Of a stretch of 64,000 nucleotides of DNA, positions 48,833-64,000 are shown in pieces; the stretch's first letter is position 1; the number at the start of each line of letters is the position of its first letter. The DNA is from Corynebacterium lowii (GTDB lineage Bacteria > Actinomycetota > Actinomycetes > Mycobacteriales > Mycobacteriaceae), in the NCBI RefSeq assembly GCF_001412085.1, contig NZ_LKEV01000007.1, forward strand, positions 1 to 64,000, given 5' to 3'. Under the pieces are notes generated by a model, which was given only the letters and a program-made list of their open reading frames with translations, ran no database searches and was not told the origin of the DNA. The position numbers were made by a program, and so were the translations under genes.

Positions 48833-50908
48833 CTACCGGCGCTTCCCCTCCCCGAACTCCTCGGTGTAATAGGCCTCATCTCCCGGCTGCTCACCCGCGT
48901 TCATTCGGGCGAGCATCGCGTTATAGCTATCCATATCCACGTCCCCCTCCTCCTCGGCGCGGTGATCGTAGTCCTGCGCCTTCTTTTCATCCTCGCGGCG
49001 CCACTGGGCAAAGAGCACGCTGAACACGATCACCAGCGGGAAGGCCCCCGAGGCCCAGGCAATTCCGCCGCCCGCGCGCTGGTCGGCCAGCAGGTCCGGC
49101 TCCCAGGGCAGGCCCAGGGAGGAGTAGAAATCGCCGGCCAGAATCTCGGTGAGCTGCATGAGGTACACGCCAAAGTACAGGTGGAAGGGCATGGAGAAGA
49201 TGAGCCAGCCGATTCGCGCCACGGGGGTACCGCGGCGCGGTACGGGGTCGGGGCCGATCATGTCCCAGAAGTAGAGGTACCCGGAGATGAGGAATACCAC
49301 GTTCATCCCCACGTGACCGCCATGTTCGGAGACCAGGACGTCGTAGAGCGGGGTGAGGTAGAGCAAGTAGAAGATCACGATGAACTGCACGGTATTAAAG
49401 CCCGGCGCGGTGATGAACCCAATCACGCGGTTGTTGCACAGCGCCCACACCCATTCGTGCAATCCCGGTGGTTGCCCCTCCCCTGCCGGGGGCACGGCCT
49501 CCATGAGGAGGGTCAGCGGCGCGCCCAGCACCAGGAATACCGGCACCACCATCGAGAGTCCCATGTGCACGATCATGTGCATGGAAAAGAGCGCCATCAT
49601 GTTCATGCCCATGCCGGAACTCATCATCACCACCAGGGTGAGGCAGCCGATGAGGAAGGAGGCCGTGCGCCACCACGGCCAGGTCTTGCCCGCGCGGCGC
49701 AGACGCAGCAGCGCCCAGAGGTAGGCGGCGGCCAGCAGAATACCGATGGTGCCGAACATGAGGTCAAAGCGCCACATGCTCCACACATTCCAGAAGGTAG
49801 GGCTTTCGTGCAGGTCAAAGCCGATGGCGATGGCCATAGGCGAGAGGTTGGGGTCGCGCGGGGCGGGCGGCGGGGTGCGGCCCATCGTGATGGCGATGCC
49901 GGTAATCGCGGCCATGACCAGCACCTCTGCCACCGCCACGCGCAGGAAGGCGGCGGAGCGGGTGGCGTCGTTACGCAACTGTGGAATGGTGATCTGGCGG
50001 TGGATGAAACCGAAGAAAGCCAGCACCACCACGCCCGCCGTTTTCGCCACGATGATGAGCCCGTAGGTGGTGGTAAACCACTCGGAAAACTCGATGCGAA
50101 TCGCGGCGTTAACAATCCCGGATACCGCCATGAAGAGCACGGAAACCAGGGCCAAGGTGGAATAACGCCGCACGGCCACGTCCAGGTGTGGTCCCAGGCG
50201 CCGCCCGTGGGCGATCAGGGCCATGAGTCCGCCCACCCACAGAACCAGGAAAATGAGGTGCCAGAGGTAGGAGTTCGTGCCGTAATCGTGATCGCCACCG
50301 GCCGCGGAATGCCCCTCCATGCCCAGTGGAATCACCGTGAGAATCGCGCCGCACAGCAGCGCGGGTTGGCTGCCCCACGTGCGGGAAAAGAGCCCCAGCG
50401 TGCCGACGACCCCGCAGATCAGCGCCACCCACAGCCAGGCCAGGGCCGTGGAGACCTGGCTAATTGCCACGCCCCAGGCCTCCGGCTGCAAGGTTTGTGC
50501 AAAGGGGGTGCCGGAGACGTCGGAAAGCGTGAGCGGAATCATCAGCAGCGCCACCAGGCCAAAGCACAGAATGCTCAGCGAGCCGGTGCGCGCGGCGATA
50601 TGCCCGTCCACGCTCAGGCGCGCCCGGGTGAGGGGTTCGGGACGCGGGGCTATGTAAAAGGAGGAGGCGAGGAAAGAACCGACTCCCAGGGAGGCCAGAA
50701 TCCAGCCCATCGCGCGGAAGAAGGGCAGGCCCGCCGTGGTGAATCGGCCGGGATCGGGAATACCCAGGGCCACCAGAGAATCGCTGAGGAAACCCCAGGA
50801 GATCGTCATGCCCACGGTTCCCGCGACGAGGGAAAAGAGCAGGTATAGCGGCCAGGAGCCGCGCGCCTGAGTGCGGCGCGGGGCTTCGGGTGAGGCGGTG
50901 GTGCTCAT
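48833..50908 (-). CDS. CopD / CtaG fusion membrane protein (copper transport and cytochrome oxidase assembly)
   Basis: This 691-residue actinobacterial fusion has a CopD-type N-terminal half (about 1-350) and a CtaG (caa3-type) C-terminal half (about 380-620). The first half includes GGDHDYGTNSYLWHLIFLVLWVGGLMALIAHGRR. The second includes MMALFSMHMIVHMGLSMVVPVFLVLGAPLTL and the motifs FGVYLMQLTEILAGDFYSSLGLPW. Membrane segments fill both halves. It probably handles copper for cytochrome oxidase. The tail is acidic and soluble. It converges with the TetR gene, with no clear terminator between. Confidence 0.88.
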   Translation of the reverse strand: MSTTASPEAPRRTQARGSWPLYLLFSLVAGTVGMTISWGFLSDSLVALGIPDPGRFTTAGLPFFRAMGWILASLGVGSFLASSFYIAPRPEPLTRARLSVDGHIAARTGSLSILCFGLVALLMIPLTLSDVSGTPFAQTLQPEAWGVAISQVSTALAWLWVALICGVVGTLGLFSRTWGSQPALLCGAILTVIPLGMEGHSAAGGDHDYGTNSYLWHLIFLVLWVGGLMALIAHGRRLGPHLDVAVRRYSTLALVSVLFMAVSGIVNAAIRIEFSEWFTTTYGLIIVAKTAGVVVLAFFGFIHRQITIPQLRNDATRSAAFLRVAVAEVLVMAAITGIAITMGRTPPPAPRDPNLSPMAIAIGFDLHESPTFWNVWSMWRFDLMFGTIGILLAAAYLWALLRLRRAGKTWPWWRTASFLIGCLTLVVMMSSGMGMNMMALFSMHMIVHMGLSMVVPVFLVLGAPLTLLMEAVPPAGEGQPPGLHEWVWALCNNRVIGFITAPGFNTVQFIVIFYLLYLTPLYDVLVSEHGGHVGMNVVFLISGYLYFWDMIGPDPVPRRGTPVARIGWLIFSMPFHLYFGVYLMQLTEILAGDFYSSLGLPWEPDLLADQRAGGGIAWASGAFPLVIVFSVLFAQWRREDEKKAQDYDHRAEEEGDVDMDSYNAMLARMNAGEQPGDEAYYTEEFGEGKRR

Positions 50909-50956
50909 GGATTACACCCTACTTCCCCACCGTGGCGGGCCCTACCAGGCCGTTGG

Positions 50957-50974
50957 AGTTCAACAGATTGAACT
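50957..50974. promoter_or_regulatory. Perfect inverted repeat AGTTCAA-CAGA-TTGAACT upstream of nrdI
   Basis: The 18-bp palindrome ends 15 bp before the nrdI ATG and touches an AT-rich TTTAATAT stretch that could be the -10. It does not match the NrdR box. A repressor bound here could block transcription. Confidence 0.5.
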
Positions 50975-50989
50975 TTTAATATCGTTAGC

Positions 50990-51397
50990 ATGAAATCTCG
51001 CCCGCCCGACATCATCTACTTCTCCTCGGCCTCGGAGAACACCCGGCGCTTCGTGGAGAAACTTCACCTCCCCGCCCTGCGTATTCCCCTGCGGCGCAAC
51101 GACGCCCCCATCCACCCCACCCGCCCCTTCGTTCTGATTACCCCCAGTTACGGCGGAGGTGACCCCGCCCGGGCCGTGCCCAAGCAGGTGATTACCTTCC
51201 TCAACGATCCCGCCCACCGCAGCCTGCTACGCGGCGTCGTGACCAGTGGGAACACCAACTTCGGCAGCGCCTACTGCTGCGCAGGCCCCCTTATTTCCTT
51301 CAAATGCCATGTGCCCGAGCTCTACCGATTCGAGCTGCTGGGCACCTCCCGCGACGTCGCCCGCGTACGACACCTCCTCACCGAAAGGACGTTCTGA
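50990..51397 (+). CDS. nrdI: NrdI flavodoxin-like protein
   Basis: NrdI (135 aa) is a small FMN protein that supplies reduced oxygen to activate NrdF. The FMN loop is in [18 protein letters not shown] (residues 8-25). The second loop is [17 protein letters not shown] and the third is [21 protein letters not shown]. In class Ie enzymes NrdI is required to hydroxylate the NrdF tyrosine to DOPA. The gene is followed after 1 bp by such an NrdF, so this is probably its dedicated partner. No nrdH precedes it. Confidence 0.93.
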
Positions 51398-51398
51398 C

Positions 51399-52406
51399 AT
51401 GCACTACATCGACCGCTCCACCCCGCCGAGCCAGTGGCGCACCGCTACCGACGCCCCCATCCGCCCGATCAACTGGAACCTACTGGAAGATTCCAAGGAC
51501 ACCGAGGTGTGGCGGCGCCTGACCAGCAACTTCTGGCTGCCGGAAAAGGTGCCGCTCTCCAACGACGTCCCCTCCTGGCAGGCCCTCGACCCCGCCCACC
51601 GGTTACTCACCGTACGCGTGTTCACCGGGCTCACACTCCTCGACACCGTGCAGGCCACCGTGGGCGAGCCCGCCCAGATTCCCGACGCCCGCACCGAGCA
51701 AGAACAAGCCGTGTACACCAATATCGCCTTCATGCAATCCGTGCACGCGCGCTCCTACAGTTCGGTGTTCTCCACCCTGTGTTCCACCCGGGAAATCACC
51801 GAGGCCTACACCTGGGCCATCGACAACCCCCTGCTCCAGCGCCGCGCCACCGCCGTGCTGCGCCACTACCACGGCACCGACTTCCTCAAGCGCAAGGCAT
51901 CCGCCACCATCCTTTCCTCCCTGCTGCTCTACGCTGGGTTCTACCTGCCCCTGTGGTTCTCCACCCGCGCGGCCATGCTCAATACCGCCGACATGATCCG
52001 CCTTATCCTGCGCGATAAAGCCGTGCACGGCTACTACTCCGGCTATAAATATCAGCGCGGGCTGGACGCCCACCCCGAGCGCCGGAATGAAATGCACGAG
52101 TTCACCCACACGCTCGTGGCTGACCTCCTGAAACTAGAGCGCGAATACTCCTCCGAACTCTACGGGCTGGTGGGTAATCCCGGTATTGAGGGAGTGATGG
52201 CCTTTGTGCACTACAACGCCAATAAAGCGCTGATGAACCTGGGTTACGCCCCCGCCTACGAAGAGGAGGCCGAGGCCGTGGAACCGGAGATCTTGGCCGC
52301 ACTTACTCCCGACGCCTCCGAGACCCACGACTTCTTTAGCGGTTCCGGTTCTAGCTACATCATCGGGGCCACCGAGCCCACGGAGGAATCGGATTGGGAC
52401 TTTTAG
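51399..52406 (+). CDS. nrdF: Ribonucleotide reductase small subunit, class Ie (metal-free) NrdF of the QSK type
   Basis: NrdF (335 aa) provides the radical for ribonucleotide reduction. Against E. coli NrdF the six metal-site positions fall at Asp82, Gln113, His116, Ser173, Lys207 and His210; the radical tyrosine is Tyr120. Three Glu ligands (98, 158, 192 in E. coli) are thus Gln, Ser and Lys: FMQSVHARSY, ILSSLLLYAGFYLP and RDKAVHGYY. All spacings (31, 7, 60, 34, 3) match exactly. This is the QSK signature of the class Ie enzymes, which use a DOPA radical without metal. The radical-transfer C-terminus is intact, ending WDF. It follows nrdI by 1 bp; the large subunit NrdE is not in the window. 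The class is inferred from residues; biochemistry is not shown. Confidence 0.9.
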   Translation: MHYIDRSTPPSQWRTATDAPIRPINWNLLEDSKDTEVWRRLTSNFWLPEKVPLSNDVPSWQALDPAHRLLTVRVFTGLTLLDTVQATVGEPAQIPDARTEQEQAVYTNIAFMQSVHARSYSSVFSTLCSTREITEAYTWAIDNPLLQRRATAVLRHYHGTDFLKRKASATILSSLLLYAGFYLPLWFSTRAAMLNTADMIRLILRDKAVHGYYSGYKYQRGLDAHPERRNEMHEFTHTLVADLLKLEREYSSELYGLVGNPGIEGVMAFVHYNANKALMNLGYAPAYEEEAEAVEPEILAALTPDASETHDFFSGSGSSYIIGATEPTEESDWDF

Positions 52407-52509: not shown

Positions 52510-52583
52510 GCCTCCGTAGCTCAGTGGATTAGAGCAGTGGGTTTCTACCCCATTGGTCGCGGGTTCGAATCCTGCCGGGGGCG
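52510..52583 (+). tRNA. tRNA-Arg (anticodon UCU)
   Basis: GCCTCCG pairs with CGGGGGC in the acceptor (one G-U pair). The anticodon loop is TTTCTAC and the T arm GGGTTCGAATCC. CCA is not encoded. Its 3' end is partly duplicated at 54061-54105. Confidence 0.95.
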
Positions 52584-52594
52584 CTTTCATCACA

Positions 52595-62059: not shown

Positions 62060-62989
62060 CTAAGCCCCCTCCTCCACGATCTCGCGCAGTTCCGCGAAGG
62101 TGGCGTCCTCGGGCACGTCCTCAAAGCTCACGTCAATGCCCTGCTCGCGCAGGCGGGTAATCATCGTCATCAGCCGCACGGAGTCAAGGCCCCAATCGTC
62201 TAAGCGGTCGCCCTCCTCGTCCAGGTCGGTGAGGTCCTCCTCCAAGAGTTCGGCCAGCAGGGCCCGCAGGTCCACAGCGCGCAGGCCCACAGCACGCAGG
62301 TCCGCGGCACCAGCCTCGGCCTCGGGCACAGAATCAGGCGCAGCACCAGCACCACCCCACGCCGAGAGCACAGCGGCGGTATCGGTCACTTCCCCCACGC
62401 AGGCGGCCACCCACTGCACCGCCTGGTGGTGATCCTCCCGGCAGAAGTCCGCCACGGCATCGGCCACGAGGAAGGGCTGTACATCGCGCATGAAGGCGTC
62501 CACGGCCGTGACCGAACAGCCAATGCGGGCGTACACGCCGCTAATCACCAGTTGGTCGCGCCCGGTGGCGCGCAGTTGTTCCTCAAAGTCCGAGCGCGCA
62601 AAGGCCGAATAGCGCCACTTTGTCAGCACCACCTCCCCCTCCTGGGGTGCCAATTCAGCGATGATCTCCGCCCCCTGGGAATCGCCCGTCATACCCGGCC
62701 CCCAGAGATCGGTGAGCAGGCCGCGCTTATCCGTGGGTTGATCAGCGGGCTGAGCGGTGTAGAACACCGGGATACCCGCCGCGCGGGCGGCCTCCACGAG
62801 GCGGCGGGTGTTCTCCACCAGGGCGGTCACCGGCTGTTCACCGGCCACGAAGGGGCGCAGGAAGTGCCGCTGCATATCGTGAATGAGCAGGGCGCTGCGC
62901 TGGGGGTCAAGGCTCCATTCCACGGCGGGGTGAGCGGTATCCTCCAAGGGCATCTCATAGGCGATGGAGGTGGGTAGGTCACGAGACAT
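62060..62989 (-). CDS. Isochorismatase with C-terminal aryl carrier domain (EntB/DhbB type)
   Basis: This bifunctional protein (309 aa) converts isochorismate to 2,3-dihydro-2,3-dihydroxybenzoate and carries the aryl group. The isochorismatase domain covers about 1-205: [52 protein letters not shown] and [19 protein letters not shown]. The carrier domain (about 230-305) has [18 protein letters not shown] with the phosphopantetheine serine. Between them lies a short Ala/Arg/Leu linker with repeated RAVxLRA units. It follows the AMP-ligase gene by 17 bp. It supports catechol siderophore synthesis. Confidence 0.92.
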
Positions 62990-63006
62990 CGGTGAAGTTC
63001 CTTCCT

Positions 63007-64000
63007 CTAGCGTTGGGTGTCGGTGGTGGAATTGAGCGTGCTGGCGAGCAGTTGCCGCAGTTCCGCACGGCTGAGTTTGCCCACCTTGGTGGTAGGAAAG
63101 GCGCTGACAATGCGCAGGGTATCGGGGATTTTATAGCGGGCAAGACCGCGCTCGCGCAGGAACTTGGAAAGGTCTGGGCGCCGCAAAGCCTGGCCCTCGC
63201 GCAGCACCACCACGGCGCAAGCGCGCTCCCCCAGGTAGGCATCCGGCTGGCCGATCACGGCGGCGTCGAATACCGCGGGGTGGGCGAGGATATGGTCCTC
63301 TACCTCCTCGGCGCTGATCTTTTCCCCGCCGCGATTGATCTGGTCCTTATCGCGGCCCTCCACCACCAGGTGCCCGCTGGGCAGGCGGCGCACCACGTCG
63401 CCGGTGATGTAGAAGCCATCGGGGGTAAAGGAGCGCGCGTTGTGCTCCGGGGCGTCCCAGTAGCCGCGGATGGTGTACGGCCCGCGTACTTGGAGTACGC
63501 CGCTGGTTCCCTCGGGCACGGGTTGGCCGTCCGGCCCCACGATGCGCACCTCGTCAAAGGCGCTCATCGGGCGGCCCTGGGTGCCCACGATGTGCTCCTC
63601 GGAATCATCGGCGCTGGTATAGCACACCAAGCCCTCGGCCATGCCGAATACCTGCTGGACGTGCCAGTCGGCGGCGTCGATAAGCTCCCGGGCGGCCTGC
63701 GGCACCAACTTGGCCCCGCCCACCTGCACCACGCGCAGGCTGCTGAGATCGGCGGTGGTCTGCGGGGCGGCGGCCGACCACGTGCGCGCCAGGGGCGGCA
63801 CGAGGGCCACGGTGGTGGGGCGATGCTTTTCGACGACCCCGAAGGCGTGCTCCGGGGCGGAGTGCTCGGAGAGGATCACCACTCCCCCGGCCGCCAGAAC
63901 CCCCAGGTAGCCCGGTGAACTGGTGGGGTAATTGTGGGTAGCGGGCAAGACCACCAGCATGCGCGTTTCCGCCGTGATACCGCAGACCTCGTTGCTGCGC
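63007..64000 (-). CDS. 2,3-dihydroxybenzoate-AMP ligase (EntE/DhbE type), 5' end outside window
   Basis: This is the C-terminal 331 residues of an adenylating enzyme that activates dihydroxybenzoate and loads it on the aryl carrier. The frame is open to the window edge ([14 protein letters not shown]...), so the start is missing; the full protein is about 540 aa. Landmarks are [77 protein letters not shown], and [20 protein letters not shown] with the A10 lysine region. It precedes the isochorismatase-carrier gene by 17 bp. Confidence 0.9.

Follow-up and report, generated by a model that had tools for sequence, protein, structure and literature searches.

A QSK-type ribonucleotide reductase subunit in Corynebacterium lowii and a promoter site that points to the manganese sensor MntR

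Ribonucleotide reductases (RNRs) of class Ie have a radical subunit that works without metal. The VPK type, as in Mesoplasma florum (6GP2/8BT3), is metal-free, carries a dihydroxyphenylalanine (DOPA) radical and needs the activator NrdI, and enzymes of the QSK type, with Gln, Ser and Lys in place of three metal-binding glutamates, were shown in 2025 to work (PMC11846895). According to the same source the Gardnerella QSK NrdF contains trace metal only and is active only once its tyrosine has been converted to DOPA, for which NrdI is required; in its structures without and with DOPA (8RAG and 8RAH respectively, at 1.9 Å resolution) metal is not seen, a lysine side chain occupying the first metal place and water the second. 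QSK enzymes, nrdIF pairs and their presence in Corynebacterium are thus already published (PMC11846895), though the portion of that account at hand gives neither the regulation of the QSK enzymes nor the time of their use. The subject here is a further example, the nrdF at 51399..52406 (forward strand; 335 residues, no internal stop) in a stretch of 64,000 nucleotides from Corynebacterium lowii (contig NZ_LKEV01000007.1, positions 1 to 64,000; hereafter the window), together with the nrdI before it and the site from which the pair may be controlled. That promoter site, judged by its sequence, points to the manganese sensor MntR, and the pair is probably a reserve, metal-free RNR for the single NrdE of the genome, de-repressed by MntR when manganese is scarce.

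An earlier note on this DNA had placed the protein in class Ie of the QSK type, on the ground that Gln113, Ser173 and Lys207 replace metal ligands with Asp82, His116, His210 and Tyr120 kept, and translation and alignment bear out that description: the metal-site positions are D82, Q113, H116, Y120, S173, K207 and H210, with the forward-strand codons for Gln113 (CAA) at 51735-51737, Tyr120 at 51756-51758, Ser173 (TCC) at 51915-51917 and Lys207 (AAA) at 52017-52019. Against E. coli NrdF (3N37) the alignment offset is steady at 15 across the metal-site region, and therefore the spacings, given earlier as equal to those of the E. coli protein, are correct. The seven-residue signature is identical in 75/75 QSK-type loci from 74 other Corynebacterium genomes, and in all 155 database proteins among the matches listed (nearest relatives, from two similarity searches); the class Ib comparison, 45 loci of other genomes plus C. 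lowii's own class Ib copy, is uniformly D-E-H-Y-E-E-H. Beyond the three ligands, the positions that co-vary with QSK are A86, E90, L177, A179, L204 and S214. Among solved proteins 8RAG and 8RAH match best. A tree with 124 rows, made by a quick method, with a tool warning that long branches meet and without the VPK type among its rows, has one branch, of support 100, that splits 79 QSK from 45 EEE (three-glutamate) proteins. The window NrdF is on the QSK side and not with metal-dependent class Ib, in the company of the C. oculi (91% identical) and C. mastitidis (90% identical) proteins. Residues, best solved match and tree support the class Ie assignment well, and the window NrdF is likely to be a metal-free radical subunit. 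As a separate observation, the QSK nrdF match in one other genome (G129:C34; L017, L239-L016 region) has, per the genome search, one TAG within its span, its residues still being QSK.

The forward-strand nrdI at 50990..51397 encodes a flavodoxin-like activator of 135 residues (NCBIfam TIGR00333, 146.3 bits with a cut-off of 74.65), and its end and the start of nrdF are one base apart. One further nrdI was found in the genome. Adjacent to the pair there is no nrdE, a layout already known since PMC11846895 counts 104 nrdIF stretches, and in that source such pairs are supposed to borrow NrdE from elsewhere. The question raised earlier, of a second and ordinary nrdF, is answered on the same contig, where nrdH, nrdI, nrdE and an EEE nrdF lie at 111-116 kb (~60 kb away), with a ferritin gene on the opposite strand between nrdE and this nrdF. 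The two NrdF proteins, QSK and EEE, share 56% identity. A single NrdE/NrdJ-family large subunit was found in the genome, class III not having been searched for, and it is the NrdE of the class Ib set (C7:113234-114790, C7 being the contig of the window). Because there is this one NrdE and none beside the QSK pair, the pair likely borrows it, and the QSK NrdF is likely to work with a shared NrdE.

Across the genus, a similarity search gave a QSK-type best match in 110/242 Corynebacterium genomes, the residues of the QSK nrdF having been read in 75/110 and the others assigned by similarity; five genomes were without a match, and in ~12 more the search gave one match only, of lesser strength (E about 1e-96 to 1e-105) and with residues unread. 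All 110 QSK-type genomes also have an NrdF 78-100% identical to C. lowii's own class Ib protein, EEE in every one of the 43/110 genomes in which residues of that copy were read and assigned by similarity in the rest. The idea that the QSK enzyme is a sole RNR was accordingly rejected, for C. lowii with its class Ib set and for all 110 genomes. This conflicts with the statement in PMC11846895 (GTDB 214) that QSK is the sole RNR of 65 species, including 40 in Corynebacterium, the genome sets being different.

Before nrdI, at 50957..50974, lies the palindrome AGTTCAACAGATTGAACT, of the form AGTTCAA-N4-TTGAACT with the spacer CAGA, a putative MntR operator (operator A below). With up to 2 mismatches allowed, the window has no other match, and 0.02 are expected. 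Its exact copies in the genome number two: C7:50957, before nrdI, and C5:31840, 23 bp before mntH, a gene of the Nramp family whose product scores 439.6 bits with the MntH model (cut-off 430), so that one genome has the same operator before nrdI and before a manganese importer gene. At up to 2 mismatches the genome has 8 sites for the palindrome, and the pattern reversed gives 1. The arms are conserved in the four closest relatives, and spacer and flanks drift. A possible forward-strand promoter, seen by eye at 50953..50982, consists of a -35 element TTGGAG (50953-50958), an 18-bp spacer and a -10 element TAATAT (50977-50982); the spacer contains most of the palindrome, the arrangement is similar in the four closest relatives, and the transcript may begin at or beside the nrdI ATG. 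A consensus promoter scan detected no promoter at nrdI. A third palindrome, with 1 mismatch, is located elsewhere in the genome, at C10:3506-3523 (L094), between an MFS-like open reading frame (ORF) and an ORF without Pfam match.

For the genus-wide comparison operator A was scored as AAGTTCAA-N4-TTGAACTT with up to 3 of 16 fixed positions off, over 86 QSK operons (12 of 98 rows, without nrdI in the stretch, were set aside, the same 12 operons being counted as longer nrdI-nrdE-nrdF stretches). It stands before nrdI in 33/86, the window's operon included, and in none of the 40 regions upstream of class Ib nrdF that served as controls; shuffled upstream regions almost never reach its score. Before C. 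lowii's own class Ib nrdH (L003, C7 near 116.2 kb) neither operator A nor the second palindrome described below was found; the stretch ACTATATATTGTG there resembles an NrdR box. On the importer side the scan took in 30 of 49 Nramp matches and 24 of 29 ZnuA matches (the remaining five being second halves of scanned genes). Operator A precedes 10/17 MntH-type genes and 0/13 other Nramp genes, and, at up to 4 mismatches, 8/24 ZnuA-like binding-protein genes, one per genome in 8 genomes. Seven of these eight are orthologues, 49-75% identical to the copy in the genome G039, with the non-carriers at 24-30%.

The genome has two DtxR-family genes, on contigs C2 and C5. The C2 protein is DtxR-like, with Met and Cys at the selectivity places, and the C5 protein, encoded about 5 kb from mntH, is a regulator distinct from it and of MntR type, with Asp and Glu at the same two places; a DtxR with its two sulfur ligands swapped for acids shifts from iron toward manganese (PMC9936198). 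Control by DtxR itself was considered and rejected, the box patterns being not above chance in the window: 0 matches at up to 3 mismatches, and for a looser version 3 matches with 6.2 expected. The earlier note had also spoken of DtxR-linked iron scavenging nearby, of which the scavenging half holds, in that siderophore-type (catechol) synthesis genes are 10 kb away (62-64 kb), but the link to DtxR was not found in the window with these patterns. Those genes, at 62060-63960, encode an isochorismatase with carrier domain and an AMP-binding enzyme.

Pertinent here is C. diphtheriae, in which nrdI-nrdF2 and mntABCD, mntA included, are listed as MntR-regulated (PMC13001254 Table 3, citing Peng et al. 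2021). The genome G039 is C. diphtheriae or a very near species, because over 226 residues its DtxR does not differ from the solved DtxR of C. diphtheriae. It has two nrdF genes: a QSK one, 5 bases after nrdI and with operator A at 0 mismatches, and an EEE one beside nrdE and ferritin, without nrdI within 1.5 kb upstream. From this gene order the nrdF2 of C. diphtheriae is the QSK one. Upstream of the mntA-type gene of G039 the palindrome is present at 4 mismatches. NrdF2 is not called class Ie in the available part of the C. diphtheriae MntR account (PMC13001254), and a review describes the C. diphtheriae RNR as very likely manganese-dependent (PMC9936198). In a further case, a database QSK protein under the name C. 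pseudotuberculosis (P0017) is identical in the tree to the protein of the genome G138, whose operator A is at 0 mismatches.

A different palindrome, AACTACG-N6-CGTAGTT (operator B; up to 2 of 14 positions off), stands before 30/86 QSK operons, and no operon has both. It is present in 18/22 QSK operons having their own nrdE. The control for operator B, its pattern reversed, was found once in 6 of 8 genomes searched. Within ~1 kb beside each operon, the range covered by the count, an MntR-family gene accompanies 25/30 operator B operons, 0/33 operator A operons and 6/23 with neither (31/86 overall), the regulator-linked operator B operons being those of L074, L086, L071 and 22 further stretches. 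The linked genes encode proteins 42-56% identical to C. lowii's own MntR and about 30% to DtxR, and at the place of DtxR Cys102 all 24 readable ones have Glu.

The course of events that these sites suggest is that MntR would bind the palindrome before nrdI, that manganese shortage would lift this repression so that nrdI and the QSK nrdF are made, and that NrdI and the QSK NrdF would then give a metal-free radical subunit, as in Gardnerella, which would pair with the shared NrdE. The purpose would be that DNA synthesis can continue at times when loading of the manganese enzyme fails. A broader proposal, favored on balance, is that the metal-free RNR of Corynebacterium is a manganese-starvation module, in which a manganese R2 is swapped for a metal-free R2 and which is wired in two ways, by an MntR box shared with manganese importers or by a dedicated adjoining MntR-family regulator with its own operator and, mostly, Asn for Asp.

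Several observations pull the other way. MntR control in this genome is read from sequence and from relatives, and the best NCBIfam match of the C5 protein, the MntR model, is at 150 bits with a cut-off of 350. The palindrome is lacking before 7/17 MntH-type genes, and in 12 other genomes, of its 30 sites with no more than 1 mismatch, 11 are at nrdI and 5 at mntH, leaving 14 at other places or unread (of the 18 that were read, 9 are at nrdI, 3 at mntH and 6 at neither; the other 4 of the 16 at nrdI or mntH were placed by coordinates). The class Ib controls are regions upstream of nrdF, and among class Ib nrdHIE promoters C. lowii's own alone was read. Neither operator is present in 23/86 QSK operons, of which 17 are also without a linked regulator. 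For operator B, the sites at up to 1 mismatch in the same 8 genomes are all (12/12) before nrdI of QSK operons, with none at an importer, and because its sites are confined to nrd operons, the metal sensed by its regulator is a guess; 20/24 readable linked regulators have, at the place of DtxR Met10, Asn where MntR has Asp (the other 4/24 have Asp). If the spacing may vary, a near match to operator B, at no more than 2 mismatches, is present in 1/40 class Ib controls (L204). Many QSK species are closely related, and the counts are non-independent.

Of the alternatives to manganese control by MntR, the one nearest to it grants the class Ie enzyme and assigns the palindrome to another regulator, of zinc or redox for example, the link to mntH arising secondarily from a broader stress regulon. 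The 6/18 palindrome loci read in other genomes that adjoin neither nrdI nor mntH, and the third site of C. lowii, with 1 mismatch, beside an ORF without Pfam match, would suit such a regulon. Among ZnuA-like genes, however, the palindrome marks one orthologue set, the remaining binding-protein genes in those genomes being without it, the C. diphtheriae list (PMC13001254) has both mntA and nrdI under MntR, and the nrd operons that use operator B adjoin MntR-family genes, so that this alternative is judged unlikely. Constant synthesis of the QSK NrdF, or synthesis under superoxide stress with manganese control minor, would fit the requirement of class Ie for an oxidant from NrdI (PMC11846895) and the operons having neither operator, but operator A before 33/86 QSK operons and before no class Ib nrdF (0/40), and an MntR-family gene beside 31/86, leave it very unlikely.

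Last in probability, and close to negligible, is the view that the gene is a class Ib nrdF that has decayed or was mis-sequenced, its product functionless or still metal-dependent. The NCBIfam class 1b NrdF models do still give the protein that label, since it exceeds their cut-offs. Sequencing error is excluded because the seven residues recur in 75/75 loci and in the 155/155 listed database proteins, and this conservation together with the tree, with its single supported QSK clade, disposes of decay as well; the close match to a working QSK enzyme is also contrary to it.

Around the pair, the gene divergent from nrdI and sharing its intergenic region (48833-50908) encodes a CopD/CtaG-like membrane protein, both NCBIfam matches being below cut-off. 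A conserved divergent neighbor was tried as the key and rejected because the divergent gene varies by species: in the window it is copD/ctaG-like, in G032, G156 and G232 an MntR-family gene stands divergent from nrdI, and elsewhere there are other ORFs. Directly 3' of nrdF is a tRNA-Arg (tct) at 52510-52584.

The control of QSK nrdIF seems to be the new part. In the literature searched a link between class Ie and MntR was not found, with the qualification that the primary paper on MntR, in which Peng et al. 2021 reportedly give a 17-bp MntR consensus, may remark on one; a review mentions both, without connecting them in the part available (PMC9936198). If MntR control is true, the metal-free RNR is a manganese-starvation response, and the MntR wiring tells when and why bacteria use such an enzyme. 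Hosts that withhold manganese would then not halt DNA synthesis in these bacteria, and it would become clear why nrdI-nrdF2 is in the MntR regulon of C. diphtheriae, a known fact so far without explanation.

Set beside the described systems, the window pair is closest to Gardnerella vaginalis R2e (8RAG/8RAH), with which it shares the Q/S/K changes, the kept Asp, two His and Tyr, the nrdI partner and the side of the tree; it differs in that it is an nrdIF pair with no adjoining nrdE and that the genome encodes a class Ib set besides. The VPK type of Mesoplasma florum is likewise class Ie, but has V/P/K residues and the gene order nrdFIE, and is a weaker match to the window NrdF. Class Ib RNR, whether that of C. 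lowii itself (C7:111-116 kb) or those of E. coli and C. ammoniagenes, is of the same family and has the same type of NrdI partner, whereas the window NrdF has the three metal-binding Glu replaced and lies on the opposite side of the tree. With the MntR regulon of C. diphtheriae there is the parallel that manganese importer genes and an nrdI-nrdF pair belong, in C. lowii by prediction, to a single regulon, the difference being that in C. lowii the importer gene bearing the palindrome is the Nramp-type mntH.
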